64,000 bases of DNA from an uncultured Clostridium sp. (GTDB lineage: Bacteria; Bacillota; Clostridia; Lachnospirales; Lachnospiraceae), in the NCBI GenBank assembly GCA_900538475.1, contig UPYT01000004.1:76758-140757 (forward strand), given 5' to 3'. Shown here piece after piece: positions 3,828-21,397 of this stretch. Below the pieces are notes generated by a model. That model was not told the DNA's origin. It made no database searches and saw only the letters and a program-made list of their open reading frames with translations. The stretch's first letter is position 1. The number at the start of each line of letters is the position of its first letter. The position numbers and the translations under genes are program-made.

Positions 3828-3829
3828 AC

Positions 3830-5040: not shown

Positions 5041-5293
5041 AAGGATTGATTGTAATTCATTCACAGCTATTCTTATTTTTATCATCGATACGGAAGGTAT
5101 CTGGAATCTGGGCGTGCTGGAAGCACATAATGTAGATAGAGACGGAGAGATGTCTGAAGCAATCAGCTCAGTAATACAATCTGCTTTGGCATTGAGCCTT
5201 TCGGTAGAGAAGATTGCACAAATCTGTGGCTGCGGAGTGGATTATGTGAGGCAGATTCAGGAATCCATGGAGAATGTGACTGCAGAACAATAA
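5039..5293 (+). pseudogene. Probable 3' remnant of an unidentified gene
   Basis: An open frame runs from 5039 (just after a stop at 5036) to TAA at 5291-5293 with no convincing start or ribosome binding site; the only ATG with a purine-rich upstream segment is 5150. The C-terminal segment (ALALSLSVEKIAQICGC and following) looks like a short helix-turn-helix tail of the kind found at the end of Rpn-type PD-(D/E)XK transposase/nuclease proteins, but that similarity is weak and from memory. A truncated gene left beside the tandem repeat is the simplest reading. Confidence 0.35.
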
Positions 5294-5368
5294 CAGAAGG
5301 TAAATGGGAAGAAGCTGGGCAGATTTGATAAATGCGATAACCATGTTCCGCACAAGTAATATAAAAAA

Positions 5369-5397
5369 TTGACATTTACCATATGAAAAGTTAAAAT
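5369..5397 (+). promoter_or_regulatory. SigA-type promoter for the cation transporter operon
   Basis: TTGACA (5369-5374) and TAAAAT (5392-5397) with 17 bp between, about 100 nt upstream of the CDF transporter start. The consensus -35 box makes this one of the clearest promoters in the window. Confidence 0.7.
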
Positions 5398-5496
5398 TAA
5401 AAATAGTTAAAAAAAGAAATGTTTTAGGAAAGAATTTTGAGAGTATGTGAAGGAAACAGGTTTTATCATACTTCAAATGAATGAGCAGAGGATTTT

Positions 5497-6462
5497 ATGA
5501 TAGCAGAAAAGAGAGAGAAACAGATTTTGCGGCTATCGTTTTTTTCAGGGCTTTTGTTTGCCGCAGTGGAGTATATTTTTTCTATATACAGCCACTCTCA
5601 GTCCGCATTGACGGATGCTGTATACGATGCATCGGAGCTGGTATTTATTGCGCTTCTTTTGTTTTTGACGCCATTATTTCATAAGCCAGTATCGGAGAAG
5701 CATCCTTATGGATATTTCCAGGTGGAATCGATTTTTGTAATTATTAAAGGTGTTATGATGCTGTCTGTAACCATGGGCGTATCTGCAGAGGTACTGGATT
5801 CTGCTTTGTCAGGAGGTAATCCTGTTGATACGGCGCAGGTTTCTCTGTTTCAGTTTTGTCTTGGCGTTGCCAGTGTTTTGATTTTTCTGGTGATGAAAAG
5901 GATGAACCGCAGTTTGTCGTCGCCAACCATACAGGCAGAGCTTTTGGGATGGAAGCTGGATATTGCTTATAGTATGGGAATGTCTCTTGCATTTTTTGCA
6001 TCCCGGTATCTGGAAAGGACGCCGCTTGGATTTATTTCTCCGTATTTTGACCAGCTGGTGGCAGTATTTGTTATGGTATGTATGCTTCCAGAAAGTATCA
6101 AGGTTTTATGGGGAGCAATGAAGGATGTTTTTCTGTTTTCCCCGGAACAGGAATTTACCGATGATGTGAAGGCCATCTGCACCCCGATCATGGAGAAGTA
6201 TGGTTTTGAACCGGTCTTTTTTGATATTACAAAAACAGGACGTCATGTGTGGGTGGCAGTTTATTTTCATATTGAAGAGGAGAGTCTGAAGGTGGAGATC
6301 TTATCTTCTGCATTGACTTACGTAAATAAGGAAATCAGGGAAAGATTTCAGGAAGCGACTTGTGAGCTGATTCTGGTTCCGAACACACAGCAGCAGCCTG
6401 AAGGAGATGAGAAAGGAAAAAGAGATGAATATACAGATTTTTGGAACAAAAAAGTGCAATGA
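5497..6462 (+). CDS. Cation diffusion facilitator (CDF) family transporter
   Basis: CDF proteins export divalent metals (Zn, Mn, Fe, Co and others) in exchange for protons. The N-terminal ~200 residues contain about six membrane segments; the family signature HPYGYFQVES follows TM2. TM2 carries an aspartate pair (TDAVYDASE), while the TM5 site reads WKLD where zinc exporters usually have HxxxD, so the metal is unlikely to be zinc alone. The C-terminal ~100 residues form the cytoplasmic dimerisation domain with a histidine-containing strand. ATG 5497 is used here; its 3' end overlaps the start of the ArsC-like gene (6425), so they form an operon. Confidence 0.85.
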   Translation: MIAEKREKQILRLSFFSGLLFAAVEYIFSIYSHSQSALTDAVYDASELVFIALLLFLTPLFHKPVSEKHPYGYFQVESIFVIIKGVMMLSVTMGVSAEVLDSALSGGNPVDTAQVSLFQFCLGVASVLIFLVMKRMNRSLSSPTIQAELLGWKLDIAYSMGMSLAFFASRYLERTPLGFISPYFDQLVAVFVMVCMLPESIKVLWGAMKDVFLFSPEQEFTDDVKAICTPIMEKYGFEPVFFDITKTGRHVWVAVYFHIEEESLKVEILSSALTYVNKEIRERFQEATCELILVPNTQQQPEGDEKGKRDEYTDFWNKKVQ

Positions 6463-6766
6463 CACAAAGAAGGCAGAGCGTTTTTTTAAAGAGAGAGGAA
6501 TCCGGTATCAGTTTATTGATATGAAGGAAAAGGGCATGAGTAAGGGAGAGTTTCTTTCTGTTGCCCAGGGAAATGGCGGACTGGAAAATATGATTCAGTG
6601 GGAGGGAAAGGATCATGATACCCTTGCTCTGATTCGGTACCTTGCTGATGAAGATAAGCTGGAAAAAGTTCTGGAAAATCCGCAGGTGATAAAAACTCCT
6701 GTTGTCAGAAACGGAAAGAAATCAACGCTGGGATACCAGCCGGATGTGTGGAAAACCTGGGATTAA
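6425..6766 (+). CDS. ArsC/Spx-family thioredoxin-fold protein
   Basis: The 113-residue product has the thioredoxin-like fold of the ArsC/Spx/YffB family: IFGTKKCNDTKKAERFF with a single N-terminal cysteine at residue 10, a central helix-rich section, and the TPVVRNGKK cis-proline segment near residue 92. A second CXXC cysteine is absent (CNDT). Family members include arsenate reductases and RNA polymerase-binding Spx; nothing here decides between them. The start at 6425 is taken because GAAAGGAAAAAGAG lies directly upstream; it overlaps the 3' end of the CDF gene by 38 nt. Confidence 0.8.
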   Translation: MNIQIFGTKKCNDTKKAERFFKERGIRYQFIDMKEKGMSKGEFLSVAQGNGGLENMIQWEGKDHDTLALIRYLADEDKLEKVLENPQVIKTPVVRNGKKSTLGYQPDVWKTWD

Positions 6767-6782
6767 AAGGGGGAAAAGAAAG

Positions 6783-7682
6783 ATGAAATTGTATGCAGCC
6801 TGCATGATGTGCCTGTTGTCTGCGCAGGAAAGAAAGCTGCGGGAGTACAGGGATGAGGATAAAAAAGCAAGGTATATAAAGGAACTGATGCGTTTGACTG
6901 CGGAGAGTAAGGACGATGCCTGCGCGCCCTGGCTGGCGGCCAGGATTGGAGAGGTCTATGAAAAATACTTTGGCGCTCCGGAGGATTACGGCCCCATAAA
7001 GGAGTCCTATAATCGTCTTGTTATGGATATGGAGTCGGAGATTGAGGGAAAAATCAGGAGTGCAAAAGATCCTCTTTACACCGCTATGAGGTATGCAAGA
7101 ATCGGAAATTATATTGATTTTTCTGCAGTCAGTGATGTAAGGCCGGAGGAATTTTTATCCCTTCTGGATCGGGAGAAGGATTCGATTGATGAGGAGGAGT
7201 ACAGGCATTTTATCAGGGAACTGGAAGGGGCAGAACGCCTTGCTTATCTTCTGGATAATTGTGGAGAGATTGTGCTGGACAAGCTGGTTATCCGCATACT
7301 CAAGGAACAGTATCCTCAGCTGAAGATAACGGCTATTGTCCGTGGGGCCCAGGTGATCAACGATGCTACAGTAGAGGATGCGGTATTTACGGGCCTTACC
7401 GGGGAAGCAGAGGTAATCGGAAATGGAGATAATGCAGCAGGAACCATTTTATCACGGATTTCCCCGGAAGCATCAGCTGCCATTGAAGCAGCCGATGTGA
7501 TTCTTTCCAAAGGCCAGGGGAATTTTGAAGCGCTTCATGGATGTGGGCTTAATATTTATTATCTTTTCCTGTGCAAATGTGACTGGTTTATGAAAAAATT
7601 CCAGGTAGATCGGTATCAGGGAATGTTTGTAAATGAGCGGCGGGTTCATGTGTGGAATGAAGAGGGGCTGTTGCAAAAGTGA
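6783..7682 (+). CDS. DUF89 (ARMT1-type) damage-control phosphatase family protein
   Basis: DUF89 proteins are metal-dependent phosphatases thought to remove damaged phosphometabolites. The 299-residue product shows the family motifs LDNCGE (about residue 159), IVRGAQVINDAT, GNGDNAAGT and KGQGNFEAL, which contain the metal-binding Asp/Asn residues. A CxxC (CMMC) lies near the N-terminus. ATG 6783 is preceded by AAGGGGGAAAAGAA; the upstream in-frame ATG at 6702 lies inside the preceding gene. It is the last gene before the drop in GC content that marks the 8-18 kb block. Confidence 0.85.
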   Translation: MKLYAACMMCLLSAQERKLREYRDEDKKARYIKELMRLTAESKDDACAPWLAARIGEVYEKYFGAPEDYGPIKESYNRLVMDMESEIEGKIRSAKDPLYTAMRYARIGNYIDFSAVSDVRPEEFLSLLDREKDSIDEEEYRHFIRELEGAERLAYLLDNCGEIVLDKLVIRILKEQYPQLKITAIVRGAQVINDATVEDAVFTGLTGEAEVIGNGDNAAGTILSRISPEASAAIEAADVILSKGQGNFEALHGCGLNIYYLFLCKCDWFMKKFQVDRYQGMFVNERRVHVWNEEGLLQK

Positions 7683-8001
7683 CAGCTCCGTTTTATGTCC
7701 TAAAAACAGAAAAAGAACGCTGAAGAGTCAGAAATCCATGATATAATAAGATATGAGTAAACGTTTTGGATATAATAAAACTCATACCAGCTGGTTTTGA
7801 CATTTAATTTAGAGGAGATAGTTTCCGATGATGCTTCTGTTTGAGTGTTGAGATGCGAATTAGAGGATTTAGAAAAGAAAGAAATCTAGTAGTTACTCCA
7901 AATATCATGATCAAAATTTTAACCTAAATAAAAACGATACTAACGAAAAGATAAAAAAGCAGCATAATAGTTAAATAGATTTAAAAATCGGGGAACGTGA
8001 T
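7683..8001. other. 319-nt AT-rich intergenic region ahead of the YesM/YesN-type genes
   Basis: No gene is supported. Visible structure: an interrupted inverted repeat TATGAGT (7752-7758) / ACTCATA (7780-7786); a TTGACA at about 7797; a seven-codon open frame from ATG 7828 after AGAGGAG, too short to judge; and AAAATTTTAAC at 7913-7923, a motif that recurs as palindromes at 11261-11280 and 11322-11351. The promoter of the sensor kinase gene probably lies here but cannot be assigned with confidence. Confidence 0.5.
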
Positions 8002-9726
8002 ATGATAAAAGGAAGAAAAGTAAGTTATGTCAGACTGCATTTTATTTACCTATTTTTATTTGTAGTCCTTTTAGCTTGTCTAATGGGAGGAAGCGTAACT
8101 CATTTTTCAAAAAATGTGGTAGGAAATGAATTGATAAAGTTACATCAGGCTCTTATCAAGCAATCAACTGGAGAAGTTATCTCTGTGGTAAATGGTTTGA
8201 AAGAAGTGACCTGTAATATTGCAGAGAATGCCAATGTTATAGATTATTTATCTGATAGTCCGGAATCAGCCAGTCCAAAAGATTTAGAAGAAATTGAACG
8301 TATGATTAGAGCTGAAATATATTTAAATCATAAATCAAAAAGATTTTTTCGTATTTATTTATATGATTTAGGGACACTTCGGTATGCAAGTGATTATCAG
8401 GAAATAGATTGGAGTGAGGCTGTTCAGGGAACGGGAGTGAATTCGATGGCACTGAGAGGTCCTGTACATAGTAGCGAGGAGGGGCTGTATCGTCATAGCT
8501 ATTATCTTACAAATCCAGTAAGAGATCTTTTGACTGGGGAAATTCGGGGATATGTATTACTCCAGTTTTGTGAGGAGGTATTATATCGCAGTTATTCTAA
8601 GTTACGTGAAAATGATAGAAAATATTTTATTATTGATGAAGGTGGGTACATCATATCCGGAGAGGATAAACGATTTATTGGTAATGAGGGAGAGCCTTTA
8701 AAATTTGCGCAGCAAAGACATGAAAATTCAGAAGGTGTTATTGCTACAGATAAAAGTTATATGTATTTTTATGAGAATATACTTGGTACACCATGGTATT
8801 TTTTGGAAAGAATAAATATTAGAGAAATTTGGAAATCTTTGGATCGAACAGGATATTTTGTGGGATGCCTCATAGTACTGTTTTCGATTTGTATTTATCC
8901 AGTTACTCTGTTTTCTGGAAAATGTATTGTTAAACCAGTTGATAAAATTAAAGAACGGATGGGAAAAGTGGCACAGGGAGATCTTTCTGTACGAATTAGT
9001 TTGGAAGAAAAGGGAAAAGGAGAATTTTCAGAAATTGCAGACTCTTTTAATTATATGGTGGAACGATTAGAGAAGCAGGTAGAAGAAATTAAGATTATGG
9101 AGCAAAAAAAGCATCTATTGGAATTGGATTTTTTGAGAACTCAGATTAATCCTCATTTTATTTATAATACACTCAGTTCTATTCGTTTTTATGTGGAGAT
9201 GGGAAAAAATGAGGAAGCAGAAGATATGTTAATTGATTTTTCTAAGATTCTGAGAAAGACTCTATCTAAATCAGAAACGACGGTTTGTTTAAAGGAAGAA
9301 CTTCAAACATTAGGCCATTATATAAATTTACAAAAAGCGAGGTACAGAGAGCGGTTTGAGGTAACGTATGATATTGATGAAAACACATTAACATCTCTGG
9401 TTCCAGATTTTATTCTTCAACCGATTGTAGAAAATGCAATTTTTTACAGCTTAAAAGAAGATCATATTTGCCATATCCAGGTGAAAAGTTATAAAAAGGA
9501 TAGTTTGTTATATGTTAGCGTAAGAGATGATGGTATTGGAATGGATCAAGAAAAGATTATACAGGTCATGGAAAAAAATGTTAACATAAATAAAGTGGGA
9601 ATTAAAAATGTCAATGAGCGCTTAAAACTGAATTTTGGTGATGAATATGGATTGAAGATTGAGAGCAAAGAAGGGATTGGTACCGAGGTTATCTTGATTA
9701 TGCCGTTTACTTCTGAACGCACATAG
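8002..9726 (+). CDS. YesM-type sensor histidine kinase
   Basis: Membrane sensor kinase of the LytS/YesM class (574 residues). TM1 is at about residues 12-34, followed by a ~250-residue extracellular sensor region (Cache-like, by layout), TM2 at about 284-304, a HAMP linker (IVKPVDKIKERMGKVAQGDL onward) to about 362, a His_kinase domain with QINPHFIYNT where His385 is the phosphoacceptor, and an HATPase domain with PIVENAI and DDGIGM. ATG 8002 is the chosen start with GGGGAACG upstream. It is 17 nt before its partner regulator and reads AT-rich like the following genes. Likely senses the substrate imported by the downstream ABC system; that is inference from context. Confidence 0.9.
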   Translation: MIKGRKVSYVRLHFIYLFLFVVLLACLMGGSVTHFSKNVVGNELIKLHQALIKQSTGEVISVVNGLKEVTCNIAENANVIDYLSDSPESASPKDLEEIERMIRAEIYLNHKSKRFFRIYLYDLGTLRYASDYQEIDWSEAVQGTGVNSMALRGPVHSSEEGLYRHSYYLTNPVRDLLTGEIRGYVLLQFCEEVLYRSYSKLRENDRKYFIIDEGGYIISGEDKRFIGNEGEPLKFAQQRHENSEGVIATDKSYMYFYENILGTPWYFLERINIREIWKSLDRTGYFVGCLIVLFSICIYPVTLFSGKCIVKPVDKIKERMGKVAQGDLSVRISLEEKGKGEFSEIADSFNYMVERLEKQVEEIKIMEQKKHLLELDFLRTQINPHFIYNTLSSIRFYVEMGKNEEAEDMLIDFSKILRKTLSKSETTVCLKEELQTLGHYINLQKARYRERFEVTYDIDENTLTSLVPDFILQPIVENAIFYSLKEDHICHIQVKSYKKDSLLYVSVRDDGIGMDQEKIIQVMEKNVNINKVGIKNVNERLKLNFGDEYGLKIESKEGIGTEVILIMPFTSERT

Positions 9727-9743
9727 AAAGGAAAATAAGGCTT

Positions 9744-11225
9744 ATGAAAATATTAATTGTTGATGATGAAACTCCAATTAGAGAATGGATTCAATTTAGC
9801 ATTGAGAGGGGAAATAATCCTGATTTTAATATCGTAGCTGTTGCAGAAAATGGTAATGATGCATTGGAGTTAGCATTAAAATACCAGGTGGATGTGGTAA
9901 TTTCCGATATAAAGATGCCGGGGATTGATGGGATTGAATTAATGAAGCAGGTCCTGAAAAAAATGCCATATACAAGTTTTGTCATATTAACAAATTATGC
10001 GGAATTTTCATATGCAAGAGAGGCTGTAACATATGGTGCAAAGAAATATCTGTTAAAATCAGAATTAAGAGGACGGGATATTTTGAGAACATTAGAAGAA
10101 ATCCAGGAGTATTATCGGAGTGTAGTAAAAGACAAGAAGATGGATTTTTATTCCAATGGATATTTGGATATTTTCGAATGTTACTATAATCTGGAGGATA
10201 AGGCGTTTCAGAGGCAATTTTGGATCTGTCATGGATTTCGTGAAGAAGAAAATTTTTTAATCATTGCATTGAAGGAAAGGGATAACAAAAAACAAAAATA
10301 TTTAATTGAAAATTTTTTATACCAGTATGAGATACATGGAGTAGGACCGGCATTAAAAAATGAAAATATTTTTCTTTTAATTCAGTCAAGCGGTGTAGAA
10401 CACTTGAAAAAGTATGTTGATATATTTGCAAGGTTGTATGAAAATAAAGGTTTTATGGTTTCTGGACACATTCAGAGAGGGGTAGCTTGTATCATGAAAG
10501 CAATTGATGAATCTGAAAAGATGTTAAGGTATAGTTTTTTGATTACAAATGGGTATTTGAGTATTGAGGATGCGGAACAAATCTTACCATTAGATCGTCG
10601 TGAATTAAAAAAAGAAAGCCATAAAATTATGAATAGCATTTTGTATGAGGAAAAAGAAAAGCTGTTATCCCGTTTAGAACGGTGGTTTAATAAATTACGA
10701 TCAGCTTCTTTTGAGGATATTGACTGGGTAAAAGAGATGTGTTTACAAATGGTAATTCGCATGGAGGAAGTAGGATGTCAATATATAGCAGGATTTTCTG
10801 AGGAGCATAAACCAGATATGCAGTGGACATTGGAATCATGTAAGGAATTTTGCTCTAATTTGACTAAACGTATGTATTCTATAGGAAATTTATGTTACTC
10901 ACAAAGTATTCGTGATACTATTCGCTATATCCATCAGAATTATAATCGTGATATTTCTTTGAATGAGGCAGCAAGTTATATTTATCGTTCTCCAGAATAT
11001 TTAAGTAGGCTTTTTAAAGCAGAAACAGGAGAAAATTTTAGCAGTTATCTTACAAAATATCGTTTGAAAAAGGCAAGAGACTTACTGTTGAATACAGATA
11101 TGAAAATTTATGAAATTGCAGATGCTGTTGGGTATACTACGCCGAGCTATTTTTCAAAGATGTATAAGGATTATATGGGGATAGCGCCAGAAGCAACGCG
11201 AAGTCAAAAAAATAATAGAATGTAA
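9744..11225 (+). CDS. YesN-type response regulator with AraC DNA-binding domain
   Basis: Receiver domain at residues 1-120 with acidic pocket VDDE, phosphoacceptor Asp55 (SDIKMPG) and conserved Lys in LLKSE. A central ~260-residue region of unknown fold follows, then an AraC-type double helix-turn-helix at about residues 388-486 (IRYIHQNYNRDISLNEAA and KIYEIADAVGYTTPSYFSKMYK). Pairing with the upstream YesM-type kinase is standard for carbohydrate or nutrient uptake control in Firmicutes. The gene ends at a terminator; palindromic AT-rich motifs flank that terminator and are candidate binding sites for this protein. Confidence 0.92.
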   Translation: MKILIVDDETPIREWIQFSIERGNNPDFNIVAVAENGNDALELALKYQVDVVISDIKMPGIDGIELMKQVLKKMPYTSFVILTNYAEFSYAREAVTYGAKKYLLKSELRGRDILRTLEEIQEYYRSVVKDKKMDFYSNGYLDIFECYYNLEDKAFQRQFWICHGFREEENFLIIALKERDNKKQKYLIENFLYQYEIHGVGPALKNENIFLLIQSSGVEHLKKYVDIFARLYENKGFMVSGHIQRGVACIMKAIDESEKMLRYSFLITNGYLSIEDAEQILPLDRRELKKESHKIMNSILYEEKEKLLSRLERWFNKLRSASFEDIDWVKEMCLQMVIRMEEVGCQYIAGFSEEHKPDMQWTLESCKEFCSNLTKRMYSIGNLCYSQSIRDTIRYIHQNYNRDISLNEAASYIYRSPEYLSRLFKAETGENFSSYLTKYRLKKARDLLLNTDMKIYEIADAVGYTTPSYFSKMYKDYMGIAPEATRSQKNNRM

Positions 11226-11260
11226 AAAAACTAATAGGAAAGTCAGTTTGAGATTAAAAT

Positions 11261-11280
11261 ATGTTAAAAAATTTTAACAT
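11261..11280. promoter_or_regulatory. Perfect 9-bp inverted repeat (candidate operator)
   Basis: ATGTTAAAA (11261-11269) and TTTTAACAT (11272-11280) are perfect complements separated by AA. It lies between the yesN-type stop and the terminator. The half-site resembles AAAATTTTAAC at 7913 and the arms at 11322-11351. Confidence 0.5.
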
Positions 11281-11310
11281 AAGGTCAGCAAGCTGGCTTT
11301 TTATTTTTTT
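11281..11310 (+). terminator. Rho-independent terminator after the yesN-type gene
   Basis: AAGGTCAG (11281-11288) pairs with CTGGCTTT (11293-11300), with G-T pairs, across a CAAG tetraloop; a T-rich tract runs to about 11312. It separates the regulator genes from the transporter operon. Confidence 0.75.
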
Positions 11311-11321
11311 TTAGGTATATT

Positions 11322-11351
11322 AAAATTTAACTATAAGTAATGTTAAATTTT
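11322..11351. promoter_or_regulatory. Perfect 10-bp inverted repeat upstream of the BMP lipoprotein gene
   Basis: AAAATTTAAC (11322-11331) and GTTAAATTTT (11342-11351) are perfect complements around a 10-bp spacer, ending 21 nt before the ATG at 11373. It could be a DNA operator for the adjacent AraC-type regulator or an mRNA hairpin just ahead of the ribosome binding site; the sequence alone does not decide. Confidence 0.5.
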
Positions 11352-11372
11352 GTAAGAAGGAAAGGAAGGGTT

Positions 11373-12494
11373 ATGATGAAAAAAAAGAAAATCACAGCAT
11401 TATTTTTAGCAGCAACGATGGGAATTTCTTTAACAGCTTGCGGATCCAAGGAGCAAGAACCGCAAAAGCAGGAAACAGAAGACAGTGAGAAGAAGGACAA
11501 AGAAGTAGCTGCAGAGGAAAATAGAGATAGCATTAAAATAGGTTTAGTATTGGGCACCGGTGGACTCGGCGATAAAAATTTTAATGATATGGCTTATGCG
11601 GGAATTACAAGGGCTCAGGAAGAAATGGGAATTGAATTTGATTACGTAGAGCCTGGGAATAGCAGTGACTTGTTGCCATTAGATCGCCAGTTTGCAGAAT
11701 CAGAGGAATATGATTTAATTATTGCTATGGCAGCAGATCAAGAGGAACCCATTCGGGAAATTGCGGAAGAATTTCCTGAACAGAAAATTTCTTTGATCGA
11801 TAGTTCAGCTGAAATTGAAGGAGTAAGTACAGTTCAAACAGAGTGGCCTGAACAGACCTTTTTAGCAGGTGTTGTGGCTGGACTTGGTACTAAAAGTGCT
11901 ATGACATTTGCAAATGAGGATAATGTTATTGGTGTTATTCTTGGAATGGATCTTCCGAATCTTCGCACAGGTGTTGCCGGTTTCATTTCCGGTGCAAAAT
12001 ATGTAAATCCTGATGTTGAAGTATTAGAGGGGGTCGTTGGAGCCTTTAATGATCCGGGAAAAGGAAAAGAAGTAGGACTTTCTATGTATAATAAGGGAGC
12101 GGATTTCATTCAGTGCATTGCTGGAGCATCTGGCTTAGGTGTTTTTGGAGCTGCGAAAGAGGTAGATCGATATGCATTTGGTGTAGGTCCTAATCAAAAT
12201 GCTGAGGATCCGGATCACATTGTTGCATCTTCTGTAAGAAGTGTGGATGGGATGGTTTACAATGAAGTAAAGGCATTGGTTGATGGAACTTGGGAACCAG
12301 GACTGCATATGAATGGAATGAAAGAGGGGGCTGTGAATTGCGATACGGAAGGATCTAATGTAGAACTGCCAGATGATATTAAAACTGCAGTAGAAGAGAT
12401 CAAGGCTAAAATTGTTGCTGGAGAATTAGTACCATGCGGTAATATTGATGAAATAGATATATGGGTGGCAGAAAACCAGTATGAAGGAAACTAA
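11373..12494 (+). CDS. BMP-family ABC transporter substrate-binding lipoprotein (nucleoside type)
   Basis: Extracytoplasmic binding protein of the basic membrane protein family (PnrA/TmpC relatives), which mostly bind purine nucleosides. An N-terminal lipoprotein signal (basic MMKKKK, hydrophobic stretch, LTAC lipobox with Cys23) is followed by a charged Glu/Lys linker and the binding domain starting KIGLVLGTGGLGDKNFND. ATG 11373 (or 11376) follows GGAAAGGAAGGG; an upstream ATG at 11340 falls inside the inverted repeat. The first gene of a six-gene operon with matching ATPase, two permeases, hydrolase and phosphorylase. Confidence 0.9.
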   Translation: MMKKKKITALFLAATMGISLTACGSKEQEPQKQETEDSEKKDKEVAAEENRDSIKIGLVLGTGGLGDKNFNDMAYAGITRAQEEMGIEFDYVEPGNSSDLLPLDRQFAESEEYDLIIAMAADQEEPIREIAEEFPEQKISLIDSSAEIEGVSTVQTEWPEQTFLAGVVAGLGTKSAMTFANEDNVIGVILGMDLPNLRTGVAGFISGAKYVNPDVEVLEGVVGAFNDPGKGKEVGLSMYNKGADFIQCIAGASGLGVFGAAKEVDRYAFGVGPNQNAEDPDHIVASSVRSVDGMVYNEVKALVDGTWEPGLHMNGMKEGAVNCDTEGSNVELPDDIKTAVEEIKAKIVAGELVPCGNIDEIDIWVAENQYEGN

Positions 12495-12531
12495 TATATG
12501 AAAAAGATGATGATTTGCAGGAGGTAACGGA

Positions 12532-14043
12532 ATGTATGCAGTCGAAATGAAGCAAATAACTAAGCAGTATCCGTTAGTCAGAGCATTAGATCGTGTCAAT
12601 TTTTCGTTAAGGGAGGGAGAAATTCTCTCCCTTCTTGGCGAAAATGGAGCCGGAAAATCTACTCTTATGAAAATCCTGTATGGTATATGTAAGCCGGATG
12701 AGGGACAGATTTTAATCAGAGGCAAGAAGGTTACAATTAAAAATCCAAAACAGGCCATAGATTTAGGAATAGGAATGGTTCATCAGCATTTTATGCTGAC
12801 TCCAGTTTTATCTGTAACAGAGAATATAGTTGTGGGATGTGAACCGGGAAAGGGGATTTTTTTTGATAAAGAAAAAGCAGAAAATCAGGTACAGAAGATG
12901 ATTGACAAATATGGATTCCATATTCGTGCATCGCAAAAGGTATCTGAACTTTCTGTAGGAGAGCAACAAAAGGTTGAAATATTAAAAGCTATTTATCGAA
13001 ATGCTAATATTTTAATTTTAGATGAGCCAACGGCTGTTCTGACACCTCAAGAGGTGGAAGAATTATTTCGGATTTTGCAGGAATTAAAATCACAGAAGAA
13101 AAGTATTGTTATTATAACGCATAAGCTTAAGGAAACTCTGGCAATTGCAGATAGTGTAAGTGTTCTGAGAGATGGAAAAATGATTCGTGCAGATGTTCTG
13201 GTAGAAGGGGCTACAGCAGAGAGCTTGGCTCAAATGATGGTTGGGCGCAATGTGACCCTTGGAATTACCAGAAAATCGAAAAATATTGGTGAAACTGCTC
13301 TTTTAGTTAAAAATATTACTTTAAAGAATAAAGATAGATTTATTTTAAAAAATATATCTATGGAGATAAAAAAAGGAGAGATTCTCGGAATTGCAGGAAT
13401 TGAAGGAAATGGTCAGACTGAGTTGATTGAATGTTTAACAGGTATATGTCATCCAGAACAACTGGAATTAGAAAAAAATGGTGTGCCTATTAAAGGAGGC
13501 CCAGATACATTTATTCAGTGTGGGATAGGGCATATTCCGGAAGATCGTATGACAAGAGGATTAGTATTAAATTTGCCAATCCTTGATAATTTAATTTTAG
13601 GATACCAAAATCGTTTTCAAAAAAAGGGTATTCTTGATAAGAAAAAAATAAAAAGTTTTTCTAATCAGCTCTTAGATGACTTTAGAATTAAAGCTCCAAA
13701 TACTCTTGTTAAGGCAAGCTCATTGTCTGGTGGAAATCAGCAAAAGATTGTAATTGCCCGTGTATTTAGCGAAGATCCCGATATTATTATTGTTGCCCAG
13801 CCAACACGAGGTGTTGACATTGGTGCAATGGAGTATATTCATGAAAGATTACTGGATTTGCGGGATCAAGGGAAGGCAATTTTATTAATTTCTGCGGATT
13901 TAGACGAGGTGAAGTGCTTGAGTGATCGTTTGATGGTTATGTATGACGGGGAATTAGTATCAGAAGGACGACCAGAAGATTTTACAGATATGGAATTGGG
14001 ACTTTTAATGACTGGAGCAAAAGGAGGGCAGAGGCATGAATGA
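12532..14043 (+). CDS. Nucleoside ABC transporter, duplicated ATP-binding protein
   Basis: A 503-residue protein with two ABC ATPase halves, as in the sugar/nucleoside (CUT2, BMP-partner) importers. First half: Walker A GENGAGKST at residues 36-44, signature LSVGEQQ, Walker B LILDEPT. Second half: Walker A-like GIEGNGQTE, signature LSGGNQQK, Walker B region IIVAQPTRG, where the usual Asp-Glu is replaced, a common degeneracy of the second half in this family. ATG follows GGAGGTAACGG. It overlaps the next permease gene by 8 nt. Confidence 0.93.
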   Translation: MYAVEMKQITKQYPLVRALDRVNFSLREGEILSLLGENGAGKSTLMKILYGICKPDEGQILIRGKKVTIKNPKQAIDLGIGMVHQHFMLTPVLSVTENIVVGCEPGKGIFFDKEKAENQVQKMIDKYGFHIRASQKVSELSVGEQQKVEILKAIYRNANILILDEPTAVLTPQEVEELFRILQELKSQKKSIVIITHKLKETLAIADSVSVLRDGKMIRADVLVEGATAESLAQMMVGRNVTLGITRKSKNIGETALLVKNITLKNKDRFILKNISMEIKKGEILGIAGIEGNGQTELIECLTGICHPEQLELEKNGVPIKGGPDTFIQCGIGHIPEDRMTRGLVLNLPILDNLILGYQNRFQKKGILDKKKIKSFSNQLLDDFRIKAPNTLVKASSLSGGNQQKIVIARVFSEDPDIIIVAQPTRGVDIGAMEYIHERLLDLRDQGKAILLISADLDEVKCLSDRLMVMYDGELVSEGRPEDFTDMELGLLMTGAKGGQRHE

Positions 14044-15118
14044 TAAAAAAGCAAAATATCAACTTCGTTCTATATTACAAAAGAATATGTCTCTGACAGC
14101 CTTGGTTTTAGCATTAATTTTAGGTGGAGTCATTATGGCAATTTGTGGATATAATCCATTAGAAGCATATGGTGCAATTTTTGAAGGAGCTTTCGGTGGA
14201 AAAAAAGCGATTTGTCAAACTTTTGTTCAGGCAACGCCGTTAATTTTTGCAGGTCTTGCGTATACAATTGCGAAAAGAGCAAATTTAATTAATCTTGGTA
14301 TTGAGGGACAGCTATATATGGGGGCATTGGGAACTACTTTAGTTGCGTTGTTGCCATTAAAACTTTCACCTGTTTTATGGATTCCTTTAAGCTTGCTTGG
14401 AGGTATGATATTTGGCGGGATTTATGCAGGAATTGTAGGTTTTATGAAAGTAAAATTTGGCTCAAATGAGGTTATTGCAACTACTATGTTGAATACGATT
14501 GCCATTAATTTTATAGCGTATATTGTAAATTATCCATTGAAAGAAGAGAATTCAATTGTTGCTCAGACGGCTAAATTTTCTAAGGAGATATGGCTTCCTA
14601 AAATGATTGATAAAACTCAACTTACGATCGCAATTCTTATTGCAGTGATTGCCTGTATCTTAGTAAAATTATTACTAGACAGAACGGTAATTGGGTATGA
14701 AATAAAGTGTGTCGGACAAAATTTAAGAGCTTCGGAAACTGCAGGAATTAGAATAGGTTCTGTTATGATTACGGCAATGTTGATGAGTGGATCCATTGCA
14801 GGATTGCTGGGAGGAACTCATGTAATGGCGATTGATCATAGACTAATAGGAGGATTTTCATCTGGTTATGGTTATGATGGAATTGCTGTTGCCGCATTGG
14901 CTGCAGACAGTCCGATTGCTGTTATTTTTTCTGGTGTTATTTTTGGTGCTTTAAGAGCAGGATGTATGGTCTTAAACCGTACAACGGGAGTTCCTACGGA
15001 ATTTATTGATGTAATCCAGGCTTTGATTATTCTTTTGGTTGCGGCACCTCTTTTTGTAAAAGAGATTTTGAGAATAAAAGATAATCGTGAAAGTGTAAAA
15101 GGAGGGAACGAAGCATGA
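14036..15118 (+). CDS. Nucleoside ABC transporter permease 1
   Basis: A 360-residue polytopic membrane protein of the BPD_transp_2 type found with BMP binding proteins. Hydrophobic segments fill most of the protein, and GLAYTIAKRANLINLGIEGQ is the family's conserved cytoplasmic loop. ATG at 14036 overlaps the ATPase gene and its own stop overlaps the next permease start, so transporter subunits are translationally coupled. A cytoplasmic N-terminus precedes the first membrane segment at about residue 18. Confidence 0.92.
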   Translation: MNDKKAKYQLRSILQKNMSLTALVLALILGGVIMAICGYNPLEAYGAIFEGAFGGKKAICQTFVQATPLIFAGLAYTIAKRANLINLGIEGQLYMGALGTTLVALLPLKLSPVLWIPLSLLGGMIFGGIYAGIVGFMKVKFGSNEVIATTMLNTIAINFIAYIVNYPLKEENSIVAQTAKFSKEIWLPKMIDKTQLTIAILIAVIACILVKLLLDRTVIGYEIKCVGQNLRASETAGIRIGSVMITAMLMSGSIAGLLGGTHVMAIDHRLIGGFSSGYGYDGIAVAALAADSPIAVIFSGVIFGALRAGCMVLNRTTGVPTEFIDVIQALIILLVAAPLFVKEILRIKDNRESVKGGNEA

Positions 15119-15978
15119 ACCAAGTTATGTCAGTATTGATATCTACATTAAGTATGTCTGTTCCTTTGATTTTGGCAGCACTAGGTGGTGTAATTTCTGT
15201 TCGAAGCGGTATTATGGCACTAGGATTGGAAAGCATGATGACAATGGGAGCTTTTTGCGGTGTTTTAGGCTCTTATTTTACCAATCATGTAGTATTTGGT
15301 ATCCTTTTTGGGATTGCGGGTGGTGCGTTATTTGGCCTGTGTCATGGTGTTTTAAGTATTCGATATAAAGTCAATCAAGTAATTAGTGGTATTGGCTTAA
15401 ATCTATTATCTGTATCAGCGACAACATTGCTTATGCAGCTTTTATGGAATAATAAAGGAGCATCTCCTCAAGTGTCATCTATAAAGCAAGGTGTTTTAAC
15501 ATCTCCAATAACATGGATTATGTTAGTTGCAGTTGTTTTAGAATACATCGTATTGTTTAAAACATGTATTGGATTGCGATTGAGAACAGTAGGAGAAAAT
15601 CCGAAGGCGGCAGCTACAGTTGGGCTTCCTGTTCATCGTATTAAATATATGGCAGTTATTTCATGTGGAATGCTGGCAGGACTTGGAGGAGCCTATTTAT
15701 CTATCGATCATCTCGATATGTACGTTAGAGATATGTCTGCTGGAAGAGGGTATATTGCAGTTGCAATCATGATTTTAGCACGATATAATCCGATAATGGT
15801 TCTTTTTTGCGCCTTGATTTTTGGATTTTCTGATGCAGTACAGATCAATTTGCAGGGATACGGTGTTCCTCCACAGATTATGTCTATGTTGCCTTATATT
15901 GTGACACTTTTTGTTCTAGCATTTGGTGTACGCCATATTACGCCTCCTGCAGGTGTGGGTGCCCATGATGATGATTAA
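15115..15978 (+). CDS. Nucleoside ABC transporter permease 2
   Basis: The second, shorter (287 residues) permease of the pair; it has the conserved LAALGGVISVRSGIMALGLE loop and about eight hydrophobic segments. ATG 15115 overlaps the preceding stop by 4 nt (ATGA type). The C-terminus ends in a short hydrophilic tail (HITPPAGVGAHDDD). With the binding protein, ATPase and permease 1 it completes a BMP-type importer. Substrate is inferred to be a purine nucleoside or a derivative because a purine nucleoside phosphorylase closes the operon. Confidence 0.92.
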   Translation: MNQVMSVLISTLSMSVPLILAALGGVISVRSGIMALGLESMMTMGAFCGVLGSYFTNHVVFGILFGIAGGALFGLCHGVLSIRYKVNQVISGIGLNLLSVSATTLLMQLLWNNKGASPQVSSIKQGVLTSPITWIMLVAVVLEYIVLFKTCIGLRLRTVGENPKAAATVGLPVHRIKYMAVISCGMLAGLGGAYLSIDHLDMYVRDMSAGRGYIAVAIMILARYNPIMVLFCALIFGFSDAVQINLQGYGVPPQIMSMLPYIVTLFVLAFGVRHITPPAGVGAHDDD

Positions 15979-16007
15979 CTAAATTTTCAGGTGAAAGGAG
16001 TCTTCTT

Positions 16008-17498
16008 ATGAAAGCAATTATGGTAATGTTTGATTCTTTGAATAGACATATGCTTCCTTCTTATGGATATCAGGATATTGTTGCTCCTAACTTTGAGCGA
16101 CTTGCTCAGAAAACAGTCACTTTTGATCAGTGCTATGCAGGCAGTTTGCCTTGTATGCCTGCCAGACGAGAACTTCATACAGGCCGCTACAATTTTCTTC
16201 ATAGAAGCTGGGGACCGTTAGAACCTTATGATGATTCCATGCCTGAAGTTTTAAAAGAGAATGGAGTTTATACGCATTTAACGACTGATCATTGGCATTA
16301 TTGGGAAGAAGGCGGCTTTAATTATCAGACAAAATATAATACATTCGAGTTTGTACGAGGACAGGAAGGAGATTGTTGGAAGGGGCATTTAAGGTGGGAT
16401 GTTCCAGAGCATTTAGATGGAAGGAAGGATGCATGTGGAAGACAGGAATACATTAATCGTTATTATATGCACGAAGAAGAAAATCAGTCCATTGCTGTAA
16501 ATTTTGCCAATGGACTTGAGTTTATTCGTAATAATCATAATGAAGATAATTGGTATCTCCAATTAGAAAATTTTGATCCACATGAGCCATTTTTTACCCC
16601 TCAGAAATATAAAGATTATTATAAAGACGGTTATGATGGAATTATGTTTGACTGGCCAGGATATCATGAAGTGGCTGAAACCCCAGAGCAAGTGCAACAC
16701 TGTATCAATGAATACAAGGCATTGGTAACTATGTGCGACACATATTTGGGTAAAGTTTTAGATATGATGGATGAATACAATATGTGGGAGGATACCATGT
16801 TGATTGTAAATACAGATCATGGATTTATCCTTAGCGAACATAATTGGTGGGGAAAAGTTATGATGCCATATTTTAATGAAATTGCGCATATTCCGCTATT
16901 CATCTGGGATCCTAGATTAAAACTGGCAGGAGTAAGACGTCAGTCTTTGGTACAGACTGTTGATATCGCTCCCACTGTTTTGGAATTTTTTGGTCAAAAA
17001 ATTCCAAAGAATATGCAGGGAAAACCATTAAAAGAGACTATGATAGATGATAAAAAAGTCAGAGATTACGCTCTTTTTGGACAACATGGTGTTCATGTAA
17101 ATATCACAGATGGAAGATATGTTTATATGCGGTGCCCTTTACAAGATAAACAGGATGAATTGTACAATTACATTATTGAGCCGTCTAGCTACCCAGGTGC
17201 AATCGGGGTGGAAGAAATGAATACTGCAGAAGCACACAAAGGCTTTGATTTTACAAAGGGCATGCCTGTTTGGAAAATCAAAGGGGGATATGGAATTCGA
17301 TCTTTGGGCTTTCCACCTAAAAAGTTAATGGATTTTGGTACATTATTGTTTGATCTCAAAATAGATCCAAAACAGGAACATCCTATCAGCGATCCAAAAA
17401 CAGAAGAAAGAATGAAAATAAATATGGTGAGATTAATGAAAAAAAATGATGCACCGATAGAGCAATATATACGTCTTGGATTAGAGGAATATCTGTAA
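16008..17498 (+). CDS. Sulfatase-family hydrolase, cytoplasmic
   Basis: A 496-residue alkaline-phosphatase-superfamily enzyme. The N-terminal metal-binding Asp (MVMFDS, Asp9), the nucleophile motif Cys49-Met-Pro-Ala-Arg53 (the C-x-P-S/A-R pattern whose cysteine is converted to formylglycine), a downstream HTGR, and the NTDHGF metal motif around residue 270 are all present. Sulfatases and phosphonate monoester/phosphodiester hydrolases share these features. There is no signal peptide, so it should act on imported substrate. A cysteine-type sulfatase in an anaerobe needs an anSME maturase, which is not in this window. Position between a nucleoside importer and a nucleoside phosphorylase is unusual and suggests an esterified nucleoside; other sulfated small molecules remain possible. 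Confidence 0.85.
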   Translation: MKAIMVMFDSLNRHMLPSYGYQDIVAPNFERLAQKTVTFDQCYAGSLPCMPARRELHTGRYNFLHRSWGPLEPYDDSMPEVLKENGVYTHLTTDHWHYWEEGGFNYQTKYNTFEFVRGQEGDCWKGHLRWDVPEHLDGRKDACGRQEYINRYYMHEEENQSIAVNFANGLEFIRNNHNEDNWYLQLENFDPHEPFFTPQKYKDYYKDGYDGIMFDWPGYHEVAETPEQVQHCINEYKALVTMCDTYLGKVLDMMDEYNMWEDTMLIVNTDHGFILSEHNWWGKVMMPYFNEIAHIPLFIWDPRLKLAGVRRQSLVQTVDIAPTVLEFFGQKIPKNMQGKPLKETMIDDKKVRDYALFGQHGVHVNITDGRYVYMRCPLQDKQDELYNYIIEPSSYPGAIGVEEMNTAEAHKGFDFTKGMPVWKIKGGYGIRSLGFPPKKLMDFGTLLFDLKIDPKQEHPISDPKTEERMKINMVRLMKKNDAPIEQYIRLGLEEYL

Positions 17499-17519
17499 TT
17501 AAACAAAAAGGAGAAGTCT

Positions 17520-18230
17520 ATGGGAAGAATACCAACACCTCATATTCATGCTGAGAAGAATGAAATAGCTAAAACAGTCTTGATGCCGGGCGATCCGCTA
17601 AGGGCAAAATTTATTGCAGAAAATTTTTTAGAAAATGCAAAATGTGTTAATTCAATAAGAAATATGTTAGGATTTACTGGAACGTATAAAGGAAAGAAGG
17701 TTACTGTATTTGGCGGAGGTATGGGGATGCCATCCGTAGGAATTTATACCTATGAACTCTTTAACTTTTATGAGGTAGATCAGATCGTTCGGATCGGAAC
17801 TGCGGGTGCTTTAAATGAGAATGTGAAGTTGAGAGATGTAGTTGTGGGAATTGGGGCGAGTACAGATTCCTCTTATGGCGAACAGTTTGGACTGCCAGGA
17901 ACTTTTGCTCCAATCGCAGATTTTTCTTTAGCCCGGCTTGCTGTAGAGGCAGGGGAAAGGATGGGGATCAAAACGGTTGAAGGAAATATTTTGTCATCTG
18001 ATATTTTCTATAATGATGATGCAGATACTTTACAGAAGTGGAGAAAAATGGGGATTTTAGCTGTGGAAATGGAGGCAGCAGCCTTATATATGAATGCTGC
18101 CCGTGCTGGAAAAAAAGCATTATGCCTATTGACAATTTCTGATGCGCCATTTAGCGGTGAGGTTTTGTCTACAGAGGAGCGTCAGTATGGCTTCACAGAT
18201 ATGATGAAAATTGCTTTAGAAATTGCATAA
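17520..18230 (+). CDS. deoD: DeoD-type purine nucleoside phosphorylase
   Basis: Hexameric-type PNP that converts purine (deoxy)nucleosides plus phosphate to base and (deoxy)ribose 1-phosphate. The product is 236 residues, full length, with N-terminal TPHIHAEKNEIAKTVLMPGDP (phosphate-binding region), the VEMEAAALY ribose-binding motif and TISDAP with the catalytic aspartate. Start ATG 17520 follows AAAAAGGAGAAG. It is 21 nt after the hydrolase gene and is the last gene of the AT-rich operon, followed by a hairpin terminator. Confidence 0.94.
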   Translation: MGRIPTPHIHAEKNEIAKTVLMPGDPLRAKFIAENFLENAKCVNSIRNMLGFTGTYKGKKVTVFGGGMGMPSVGIYTYELFNFYEVDQIVRIGTAGALNENVKLRDVVVGIGASTDSSYGEQFGLPGTFAPIADFSLARLAVEAGERMGIKTVEGNILSSDIFYNDDADTLQKWRKMGILAVEMEAAALYMNAARAGKKALCLLTISDAPFSGEVLSTEERQYGFTDMMKIALEIA

Positions 18231-18391
18231 AAATTTTTTATGTCAATGTATGGGACAAAAGTAAATGAATAATCTACGGGAGCAGAAGCTTCGTTAAGAT
18301 TTTTCTTCTGATCTGTATGGAACTTTTATATAAATGAAAGATAACCATATGAGAAATGCACAGTTAAATCCAGATTTTTGTACAGAGAATG

Positions 18392-18433
18392 AGGCATCGC
18401 TCAATTATTTAATTTGATAATTTTGCGATGCCT
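18392..18433. terminator. Bidirectional terminator between deoD and the OLD-type gene
   Basis: AGGCATCGC (18392-18400) pairs with GCGATGCCT (18425-18433), with an inner AATTAT/ATAATT stem in the loop. It lies between convergent genes and is followed by T-rich sequence on the plus strand. The AT-rich block ends at about this position. Confidence 0.7.
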
Positions 18434-18439
18434 TCTTAC

Positions 18440-20296
18440 TTAAACCCTTCGGCTGTCAAAATAGGGAAACTGATCGATGGCGTCCAGAATATCACGGAAG
18501 TCATCGCGGGGAGCTATTTTGATATAGTTTTTTAGGATTTCCTGCTCTCTGTCTTTAAAGGGGCCATAAAAAATATCATAAAGATTGTGTCCCCTCAGAT
18601 ATATTTTAATTTCTTCCAGGTGCTCTTTTATGTCTTTGGGAGAGGTGAAATTCCGGCCAAGAACCTGTATCAGCTGCTGGCCGCTGCGGAGCCGATACAG
18701 ATACTCATTCCATTTTTCGTACAGTACAGAATAAAACATTTCTTCGGATTCTACAATGCCAAGGGCAGCCATAATTTTCGGATTCAGAAAATAATTTTCA
18801 AAGGAATAATATTTTAAAATCAGTACATTTCGCCGTGTGACTCTGGGCAGCTGATCCACATCTTCCAGATTCCGCTCATCGTAGTAATGGCACAGCTGGG
18901 AAGCTAACTCTTCCGGATCCTTGCCGTCACCATCTCGGATCATGAGAAACTGATCCCGAATATATACCTGATTCATGTATTTTAAATTGGCATAGGTTCG
19001 AATGTTGGTACAGCTGTTGGTGGTGAGAATGGAAATCCGGGCAAGCCGTCCCTGGCTGTCGTGGATTTCTGAATAATAGTGTTCCAGCAGCAGGGGGAGA
19101 CGGGATTTATCCTGCTTTCCTTCTACGATGAATACAAAGCTGACGTTCATGAGATCGTTGGCGCCATAGCCCAGATCGTCCAGAATCTGTCCCAGATCGG
19201 TTTTGGGGCGTATGATGGAATATCGGTCCTCGTCCAGAACCATCTGACGGATCTGACGTTTGGTAAAGTTAAACAGGAGATCCGGAGAGTGGGTTTTAAA
19301 TATTACCTGATTCTTTTTGGAAAGGCGGTACAGGATCTCACTGCAGATTTTCTGAAGTTGCGGATGAAGGAAAATCTCCGGATCCTCTACGACAATCAAG
19401 CTGGGGATTCGTCCGGGTTCGGTAATGTAGGTTTCCAGAAGAGACAGCATGTAGATGCTTCTCATGCCTTTTCCCATAAGCTCTACTGGTTTCACGGTCC
19501 TGGTCTGTGGGTTAAAGGAGGAGACCTCCAGGGAGAAAAGCTGATCGATATCATAATTCAAGGTAAAATGAATCTCCTCAAATCCTCCGTTTTTTCGGAA
19601 ATTGTGATTGAGCTTTTCGGAAAAATCACTGAGATTCAGCTGATAAATTTTCGATTCCAGAAGACGGGCCGTTTCTGCCGCAGTCAGCTCTTCTGGTTTT
19701 TTCTGGTAAATTAATCCCAGGCATTGAAAGCAGTGATTGCACTGCTTGGCCTGTTCAAAGAGACAGGAGCCGGATCGCAGTTTTTTCAGCTGGACATTTT
19801 CCTGAAACATCAGCAGATCGTTCTGCAGAAGCTCCAGATCCCGTTCTGCGGTGATGCGGTAAATCCGGGGAAGGAGCATGGGAATATAAGGGTTATTTTT
19901 CCGGAATCCGTCCTCATAGCGGATTTTTCCGTCCCGGTTTACATGAAAGGTAAAGGTCAGCTCCCGATTTTCCTGAGAATAGGAGGGGAAGCGTTCGTAA
20001 AAGGTTCTGAGCCAGACCTCATATCTGCGGTACTGACTGACAATCCCCATATAGTGAAACAGCTTTAAATCTTCTTGGTCAATGGAAATCGATGCTTCAA
20101 TGCGGATGGCCTGAAGCTTTTCATTAAAATCAGATTCCTGGACAGGATAATAGCCGCAGACAGCGCAGATGGCATCCAGAACGGAGGTCTTTCCTGTGTT
20201 GTTTTTTCCTACCAGAATCAGAGCGCTGTCAATGTCGGTAATTTCCATGTCGCGGATGGATTTGAAGTTATGAATGTGCAAATAAGTAAGCTGCAT
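18440..20296 (-). CDS. OLD-family ATP-dependent nuclease (AAA ATPase plus TOPRIM)
   Basis: A 618-residue protein with an ABC/RecF-like ATPase: Walker A GKNNTGKT at residues 30-37, a long insertion, Walker B IVVEDPEIFLHP and FKTHSPDLL, then a TOPRIM domain with FIVEGKQDK, the acidic RDGDGKD and a downstream FENYFLNP. This is the class 1 OLD arrangement (nuclease linked to defence or repair). ATG 20296 is preceded by AGGAGGCGCTT; a start 7 codons upstream has no such site. No UvrD-like helicase (GajB) partner is adjacent, so this is not a standard Gabija pair. Neighbours on the minus strand are unrelated cell-surface genes. Confidence 0.85.
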   Translation of the reverse strand: MQLTYLHIHNFKSIRDMEITDIDSALILVGKNNTGKTSVLDAICAVCGYYPVQESDFNEKLQAIRIEASISIDQEDLKLFHYMGIVSQYRRYEVWLRTFYERFPSYSQENRELTFTFHVNRDGKIRYEDGFRKNNPYIPMLLPRIYRITAERDLELLQNDLLMFQENVQLKKLRSGSCLFEQAKQCNHCFQCLGLIYQKKPEELTAAETARLLESKIYQLNLSDFSEKLNHNFRKNGGFEEIHFTLNYDIDQLFSLEVSSFNPQTRTVKPVELMGKGMRSIYMLSLLETYITEPGRIPSLIVVEDPEIFLHPQLQKICSEILYRLSKKNQVIFKTHSPDLLFNFTKRQIRQMVLDEDRYSIIRPKTDLGQILDDLGYGANDLMNVSFVFIVEGKQDKSRLPLLLEHYYSEIHDSQGRLARISILTTNSCTNIRTYANLKYMNQVYIRDQFLMIRDGDGKDPEELASQLCHYYDERNLEDVDQLPRVTRRNVLILKYYSFENYFLNPKIMAALGIVESEEMFYSVLYEKWNEYLYRLRSGQQLIQVLGRNFTSPKDIKEHLEEIKIYLRGHNLYDIFYGPFKDREQEILKNYIKIAPRDDFRDILDAIDQFPYFDSRRV

Positions 20297-20395
20297 AAGC
20301 GCCTCCTGAAAGAACACGAAACCCGGTTACAGATAAGTCCAGTATAAATCAGAGCAGGGAAAGGGACAACCGGTTTTTGAAAAAATGCAGCTTTT

Positions 20396-21397
20396 TTACA
20401 TACCCGTACCTGTTTCGGAGGCATCTTTCAGCCAGTCTACCCACACAGAATAGTATTTTCCCAGCACATGGGAACCATCTGTGGAGTAATCTGCCTTCAG
20501 ATTGCCGTTTTCATCATCAAATACTGGATTTACATCAAGATAGAAGCAGCTGTTTTCTTCGGCAAGGGTCTGGATTCCGCTGTTAAGGCGGTTGATTTTT
20601 TCGTTGTTGTAGGTACTGCTTGAGGCTGATTTGTTTCCGGTAACATGAAGGTTGGCCTGAAGAACCAGGATTGCCTCCGGCTGCAGGGACTGAATGGTAT
20701 CTACTACAGACTGGTATTTTTTGATAATGCTGCTGTATTCGTAACCCAACTCATTGATTCCCAGCATCAGGTAAATGGTTTGAAATTGCCTTCGAGACAA
20801 AACTTCCCTTAATGTCAGCTTGATCCCGCTTTTTGTTTTTACACGGGAATCAAACAGGTTGAATACACTCATTCCGGAATCTGCAAAAACCTCAGCCTGT
20901 CCCAGATCTCCATATTCGGAAAGGCCGGCAGTCCTGGAGTCTCCAATAAAAAGCACATTGGTGAAATCGGGATTTTCCGGGATAGAGAGGGCGTTCTGTG
21001 TGGAGGTTTCTGGGAGAGCGGAGGAATGGCTGTCCCCTGAAACTTCTGTGGCTGAGGAAACCGTGCCGGATTCCTCAGCAGCCGGAGAGACGTTTTCGGA
21101 GCCGGACACTGCCATGTCGTTGGAAGCAGAACTGTCAGCTGGGAGCGGAGCTGCCGGATTTCTCTCAGAAGAAGCTTCCTGGTCTGCGCCTGGTTCAGCC
21201 GGAGGCTTTTCGGACAATGTCTGTCCTCCATCGGCGTATGCCTTTGCAGTCATTCGGAGATCGGTTCCGATATCGATGATTTCAGCGGCTACTGCTTCCG
21301 CCACAGAATCCGGAATCATCCGCGCTGCAGCAGCGCCGGAAAGGCTGATGGTTAAAAGTATGGTATACCAGTATTTTCTCATAATGTACATCTCCAT
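20396..21397 (-). CDS. Membrane-anchored SGNH/GDSL-type hydrolase or acyltransferase
   Basis: A 333-residue protein with an N-terminal hydrophobic signal/anchor (residues 8-26), a low-complexity Pro/Ser/Ala/Glu-rich linker at about 60-140, and an SGNH domain: FIGDSRTAG with nucleophile Ser154, LGINELG (block III) and DGSH with Asp307 and His310. Its ATG overlaps the stop of the MBOAT gene by one base (TAATG), so the two are coupled; an alternative start at 21382 is possible. SGNH partners of MBOAT proteins (PatB-like) transfer or remove O-acetyl groups outside the cell, and that is the inferred job here. Confidence 0.8.
   Translation of the reverse strand: MEMYIMRKYWYTILLTISLSGAAAARMIPDSVAEAVAAEIIDIGTDLRMTAKAYADGGQTLSEKPPAEPGADQEASSERNPAAPLPADSSASNDMAVSGSENVSPAAEESGTVSSATEVSGDSHSSALPETSTQNALSIPENPDFTNVLFIGDSRTAGLSEYGDLGQAEVFADSGMSVFNLFDSRVKTKSGIKLTLREVLSRRQFQTIYLMLGINELGYEYSSIIKKYQSVVDTIQSLQPEAILVLQANLHVTGNKSASSSTYNNEKINRLNSGIQTLAEENSCFYLDVNPVFDDENGNLKADYSTDGSHVLGKYYSVWVDWLKDASETGTGM

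Follow-up and report, generated by a model that had tools for sequence, protein, structure and literature searches.

Here we describe a block of eight genes in a 64,000-nucleotide stretch of DNA (the window) from an uncultured Clostridium sp. of the Lachnospiraceae (GenBank assembly GCA_900538475.1, contig UPYT01000004.1, positions 76,758 to 140,757). Six of the genes encode a BMP-family binding lipoprotein, a double ABC ATPase, two permeases, a sulfatase-fold hydrolase and DeoD, a purine nucleoside phosphorylase (PNP). We judge it rather probable that these six constitute an operon for the catabolism of a purine nucleoside bearing an anionic ester, a sulfate on the sugar being the likeliest; the compound would be imported, unmasked and then phosphorolysed. 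The strongest evidence of this study is that the hydrolase is conserved across related loci while the same roles next to it are taken by different protein families.

Linkage of the hydrolase clade to nucleoside genes

Relatives of the hydrolase were taken from a contig scan (the best 80 of 579 loci), and genome searches added L088, L094 and L095 to its clade. Neighbouring genes were identified with a reference library built from the window and the clade loci, which could miss distant versions. In all 13 other clade loci an importer adjoins the hydrolase or, in L095, stands one gene off; it is a BMP-type ABC importer in ten, another ABC importer in one and an MFS_2 transporter in two. A PNP, either DeoD or PunA, is present in nine of the 13 (10/14 with the window), and lies immediately 3' of the hydrolase in the window, L004, L008, L088 and L094. 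At a threshold of 1e-8, none of 70 control loci (L011-L080; 44 of them at least 18 kb long) matched BMP, permease, PNP, MtnA, aldolase, deaminase, adenosylhomocysteinase or DeoC. Their matches were generic: ABC ATPases, kinases, an alcohol dehydrogenase (L038), DeoR (L036), an adenine phosphoribosyltransferase (L072) and, in eight loci, anSME. Counted among these controls is L032, which belongs to the clade but is outside the 14; its contig begins within the gene, and it has no informative neighbours. Four further loci outside the clade (L089, L096, L097 and L098) gave no PNP or BMP match. Fisher's test for PNP (9/13 against 0/70) returned p = 2e-9, uncorrected for relatedness. The recurrence of the association in 13 clade loci, with either of two phosphorylase families and any of three importer types, supports the claim of an earlier note on this DNA that importer, hydrolase and phosphorylase belong together, and the 0/70 control rejects the chance neighbourhood that it had named as its refutation.

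The loci differ in their arrangement. L001, L002, L004 and L094 share the plan of the window, with kinase, regulator and BMP importer; their regulator homologues are 46-64% identical and a kinase homologue occupies the same position. In L004 and L094 PunA follows the hydrolase, in L094 with DeoC after it; no PNP was seen in the L002 locus, the L009 sequence stops just past the hydrolase, and L001 has an assembly gap there. L006 carries a BMP importer, the hydrolase, a deaminase-like gene (35% identity) and PunA (53%), and L008 adenosylhomocysteinase, BMP importer, hydrolase, PunA and anSME. In L005 and L007 the set comprises DeoR, class II aldolase, PunA, alcohol dehydrogenase, MtnA, BMP importer, hydrolase and a deaminase-like gene, with adenine phosphoribosyltransferase farther on, and L010 has two permeases, hydrolase, aldolase, a DeoR-like gene and MtnA. 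L003 combines an Rbs-type ABC importer with the hydrolase and, after some 4 kb in which the genes lie on the other strand, a BD-FAE esterase, PNP and DeoC. L088 and L095 have in common the hydrolase, a Crp-type regulator, an MFS_2 transporter and a BD-FAE esterase, the former with PunA and the latter with DeoD.

Control by the adjacent two-component system, as the earlier note had it, is plausible in five of the 14 loci (window, L001, L002, L004 and L094); the other nine carry different regulators, of DeoR type in L005, L007 and L010, of Crp type in L088 and L095, and of other kinds in the rest.

The three clade loci that have no BMP importer, L003, L088 and L095, all have a BD-FAE-type esterase with the hydrolase, which may indicate that the substrate also bears an acyl group.

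A quick tree of 124 of the 145 sequences required two changes of the clade label. A careful tree of 41 rows required one, with all 14 members on one side of a single branch whose support was 92/67, the bootstrap not having settled. The genome sets searched for further members were overlapping draws in which the first look scores few candidates per genome (three in the 397-genome search). Among 397 genomes of the family of L001, searched at 1e-240, new clade members were found in G370 and G159; other matches fell in the known G001 and G007 (further copies, including L088 and the outgroup L089) and in G319 (outgroup L096). Sets of 145 and 394 genomes yielded no new clade member, and a set of 291 gave only two outgroup matches, L097 and L098, both in G888. 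Lower-scoring matches from sets of 32 and 31 genomes, in G1130, G1134 and G007 (L122, L123 and L125), are off the tree.

Features of the hydrolase and the binding protein

The formylglycine (FGly) motif of the hydrolase is C49-M-P-A-R53. C49, P51 and R53 are kept in 62/63 clade rows, which take in proteins without visible gene surroundings, and in 71/72 rows of a second set, the remaining row of each being a gap. The predicted metal ligands D9, D270 and H271 are conserved and were matched by alignment to D14, D296 and H297 of SmCS, whose roles are described in PMC5870055. Likewise, the predicted general acid pair, H192 and K283, is kept in 63/63 and 72/72 rows and aligns with SmCS H201 and K309. 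At the position of the sulfate-binding K102 of SmCS the hydrolase appears to have His95, although the alignment is ambiguous and places Thr93 there with another template.

In the structural model the first strand already occupies residues 2-8, and M1 is nearly invariant among 32 aligned sequences, the window included. Together these leave no room for a signal peptide, in agreement with the earlier note, so that hydrolase and DeoD should act in the cytoplasm on an imported substrate. The check proposed there for an anSME gene was run on the genomes of relatives, and an anSME-type homologue was found in 12/12.

The hydrolase resembles the S1 FGly sulfatases (choline sulfatase BetC, S1_7 6hhm and carbohydrate sulfatases) in fold, FGly motif, metal-binding Asp/His residues and the anSME-type homologue in relatives, and departs from them in being partnered with nucleoside genes. 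With the phosphonate monoester hydrolases (4upk, 2w8s and 2vqr) it shares fold and FGly motif, and 4upk is its best single-sequence match. However, the PehA equivalog NF045661, though its top NCBIfam match, scores 130 bits against a cutoff of 900, and no phosphorus-linked genes were noticed nearby by eye. Fold does not discriminate between the two groups and was rejected for that purpose. We also dropped W96 and the 435-440 insertion as clade marks specific to nucleosides; W96 need not be an innovation, since it aligns with the W of a KWH stretch in a solved sulfatase, and the KWH motif is typical of sulfatases.

The model of the BMP protein has a mean pLDDT of 88.2, and its best solved matches are nucleoside binders: guanosine-bound Lbp ranks first, followed by adenosine-bound BmpD and inosine-bound PnrA, tied with riboflavin-bound RfuA. 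The closest NCBIfam importer models are a 'putative B6 ABC transporter' set, all far below cutoff (NF047927/28/29/30, at 72.5/400 for the binding protein, 147.8/465, 159.3/400 and 418.5/670 bits). The stacking Phe pair is intact in the window; among the sulfatase-linked BMPs the first Phe is present in 10/10 and the second in 9/10, with Trp in L008. Importer family, fold, base-stacking aromatics and a nearby PNP are thus shared with the PnrA/BmpD/Lbp-type importers with linked phosphorylase, from which the window is set apart by a cytoplasmic sulfatase-fold hydrolase ahead of the PNP gene and by a changed ligand pocket, discussed below.

Proposed pathway and its alternatives

In the proposed pathway the BMP lipoprotein would bind the masked nucleoside for intact uptake by the ABC importer. 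The FGly hydrolase, activated by an anSME-type maturase, would strip the ester in the cytoplasm, and DeoD would phosphorolyse the freed nucleoside to its base and (deoxy)ribose-1-phosphate. In the window the adjacent kinase-regulator pair probably switches the operon on. Gene content, the recurrent linkage, the catalytic motif, the maturase homologue in the genomes of relatives and the unusual composition are observed here, whereas we infer the substrate, sulfate as its mask, the order of the steps, their regulation and the direction of transfer. Sulfate appears the likeliest mask: a single hydrolytic step would then leave a nucleoside on which PNP can act at once, the FGly motif and anSME speak for it, and no nucleotidase was noticed in gene lists read by eye (those for L006, L009 and L010 being poor owing to high GC). 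A deaminase-like gene accompanies PunA in L005-L007, and a library search found none in the DeoD loci (window and L095). This pattern would suit an adenine nucleoside, only a hint given that PunA occurs without a local deaminase-like gene in L003, L004, L088 and L094.

The binding pocket bears on the nature of the ligand. Asp225 and Lys242 (BmpA/BmpD numbering, verified by counting along the printed BmpD sequence) contact ribose according to PMC13325309; in the window they are Gly and Arg, and both are lost in 10/10 sulfatase-linked BMPs. BMP-only searches, with finds in 0/3, 9/299 and 1/384 genomes, supplied a comparison set, L113-L120, namely the eight of ten places from the 299-genome search that were not previously known. 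The change is not confined to sulfatase-linked importers: L113-L115, with no sulfatase, also have neither residue (3/8 sulfatase-free BMPs); the sulfatase-free L116, L117 and L120 are without one of the two; and Asp225 is missing from all 120 nearest BMP homologues. The pocket change would therefore indicate at most an altered sugar in general, not sulfate, and we dropped it as proof of a sulfated ligand. Sulfatase-free relatives of the importer also adjoin nucleoside genes (PunA, MtnA and aldolase in L114; PunA and a DeoC-like gene in L115).

The L114 operon (2792-10877), with BMP importer, PunA, class II aldolase, DeoR and MtnA, resembles L005 minus the hydrolase.

Were the hydrolase instead a phosphodiesterase or phosphonate monoester hydrolase, acting on a cyclic nucleotide, a nucleoside phosphodiester or a phosphonate, a diesterase would yield a nucleotide, on which PNP does not act. 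With no nucleotidase or phosphatase noticed by eye beside the hydrolase in those gene lists, a phosphodiester seems less likely than a sulfate. The shared fold and the match to 4upk suit such an enzyme; the three best PDB matches to the hydrolase profile are all sulfatases, and in one of two alignments His97 corresponds to His104, on the nucleophile side of choline sulfatase. We consider this explanation improbable. We likewise think it unlikely that the substrate is a glyconucleoside or other purine conjugate with a sulfated sugar, the enzyme keeping an ancestral sugar-sulfate specificity and the nucleoside being freed later. Natural purine conjugates with sulfated sugars do exist, several outgroup members lie in surroundings suggestive of sugar use (15 loci, by eye), and esterase-like BD-FAE genes stand beside the hydrolase in three clade loci. 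No glycosidase, however, was noticed by eye beside PNP in the clade loci, and in five of them PNP comes directly after the hydrolase. The sugar-like context of several wider-family loci could also mean a plain sugar sulfatase, with the nucleoside genes nearby by chance or through shared regulation, an explanation that we hold to be very improbable given an importer in 14/14 and PNP in 10/14 clade loci, and BMP or PNP in 0/70 elsewhere.

An open-literature search found neither a nucleoside sulfatase nor a described operon or pathway for import, desulfation and phosphorolysis of a sulfated purine nucleoside, in keeping with the earlier note, which knew of no described pathway of this form. Sulfated guanosines from spider venom and sulfated purine glycosides from a beetle show that sulfated purine compounds exist, and further papers on venom carry the phrase 'sulfated nucleosides'. 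A related described scheme is the dihydroxyacetone phosphate shunt for 5'-deoxynucleosides (MtnA, Ald2; PMC10986504), which L005, L007 and L010 recall in having MtnA and a class II aldolase near importer or hydrolase. In contrast, the window block has neither gene, and the shunt, in the part of that description available, has no sulfatase step.

We advance more tentatively, as somewhat short of an even case, the wider proposal that a dedicated bacterial pathway, passed horizontally between Clostridia of the gut, takes up intact sulfated purine nucleosides, which are then desulfated in the cytoplasm, before phosphorolysis, by what would be the first nucleoside-sulfate sulfatase, sulfated nucleosides then being a common overlooked nutrient. 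If the reading of the six genes as such an operon holds, a sulfatase clade annotated by family only would gain a definite substrate class open to test, and animal guts would be expected to contain masked nucleosides. Because the linkage recurs with two phosphorylase families and three importer types, the functional prediction is unusually strong for one drawn purely from genomes.

Block layout, composition and other features of the window

The eight genes, kinase through DeoD, run in one direction on the + strand at 8002-18230 (Table 1). They are as the earlier note named them, with Pfam and NCBIfam in agreement; its 'YesMN' label for the sensor fits as far as domain architecture. The start chosen for the BMP gene gives a lipoprotein-like signal, judged by eye. 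From bmp to deoD the genes overlap or are spaced 21 to 37 bases apart, and the hairpin ahead of bmp sets the kinase and regulator genes apart from the other six. The terminator scan found five sites against 5.7 expected in shuffles, and the call of this hairpin rests on its position and T-run.

Table 1. Coordinates of the block features in the window
Feature	Position	Strand	Basis
Sensor histidine kinase	8002..9726	+	His_kinase PF06580, HAMP PF00672, weak dCache (Pfam)
Response regulator with AraC-type helix-turn-helix	9744..11225	+	PF00072+PF12833
Terminator-like hairpin with T-run, between regulator and BMP gene	11281..11300	+	Consensus scan
BMP (PnrA-like) binding lipoprotein	11373..12494	+	PF02608, E 4e-48; start in list of open reading frames 11340
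GVGPNQN stretch, Gly in place of the ribose-contacting Asp of GVDxDQ	12180..12200	+	BMP sequence comparison
Double ABC ATPase	12532..14043	+	PF00005, two stretches
Permease 1 (BPD_transp_2)	14036..15118	+	PF02653
Permease 2 (BPD_transp_2)	15115..15978	+	PF02653
Cytoplasmic sulfatase-fold hydrolase, conserved core of the finding	16008..17498	+	PF00884 Sulfatase, E 3.8e-33; clade and context
C-M-P-A-R codons, predicted formylglycine site	16152..16166	+	Translation and alignment
DeoD-type purine nucleoside phosphorylase	17520..18230	+	TIGR00107, 306.5 bits against cutoff 232.25
Inverted repeat ending the block, possible terminator	18392..18433	.	17-nt arms, 88% complementary

As the earlier note had observed, the block is AT-richer than its surroundings. 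Its GC fraction is 0.360, against 0.462 and 0.465 in the left and right flanks, and third-position GC of its genes is 0.23-0.32 (DeoD 0.318), against a mean of 0.491 (sd 0.037, minimum 0.402) for the 43 other window open reading frames of at least 150 aa. The corresponding block in 10 relatives departs from its own flanks by at most 0.07, in either direction; that of L088 is likewise AT-richer than its surroundings (0.391 vs 0.456). The composition is most pronounced in the window among the loci compared, which fits arrival from a low-GC donor. Transfer, also raised in the earlier note, is thus strongly suggested, and the block was probably acquired in this way, with a low-GC relative as the putative donor of the operon set. 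Searched separately, the two edge regions showed no direct repeats, and no integrase or transposase was recognised by eye among open reading frames of at least 100 aa listed for 4000-22000. A plasmid search at 1e-60 returned 87 records, all below 60% identity, with no plasmid carrier of a close form. The block genes are not unique to this record, as the 90% cluster of the BMP gene comprises 17 contigs, the longest of 10,777 bases (P0121).

Adjoining the block, on the - strand at 18440-20317, is a gene for an OLD-family ATPase-like protein (PADLOC Old model, E 3e-32), a possible defence gene by its sequence. Farther on, within 31482-34068, a PreQ1 riboswitch (RF00522, 41.3 bits) precedes open reading frames resembling, by eye, a nucleoside hydrolase, a small ECF-type membrane protein and a radical-SAM-like protein, an arrangement that we take to be like that of the queuosine salvage operons of Clostridioides difficile. 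A THF riboswitch (RF01831, 85.9 bits) lies at 41538-41642.
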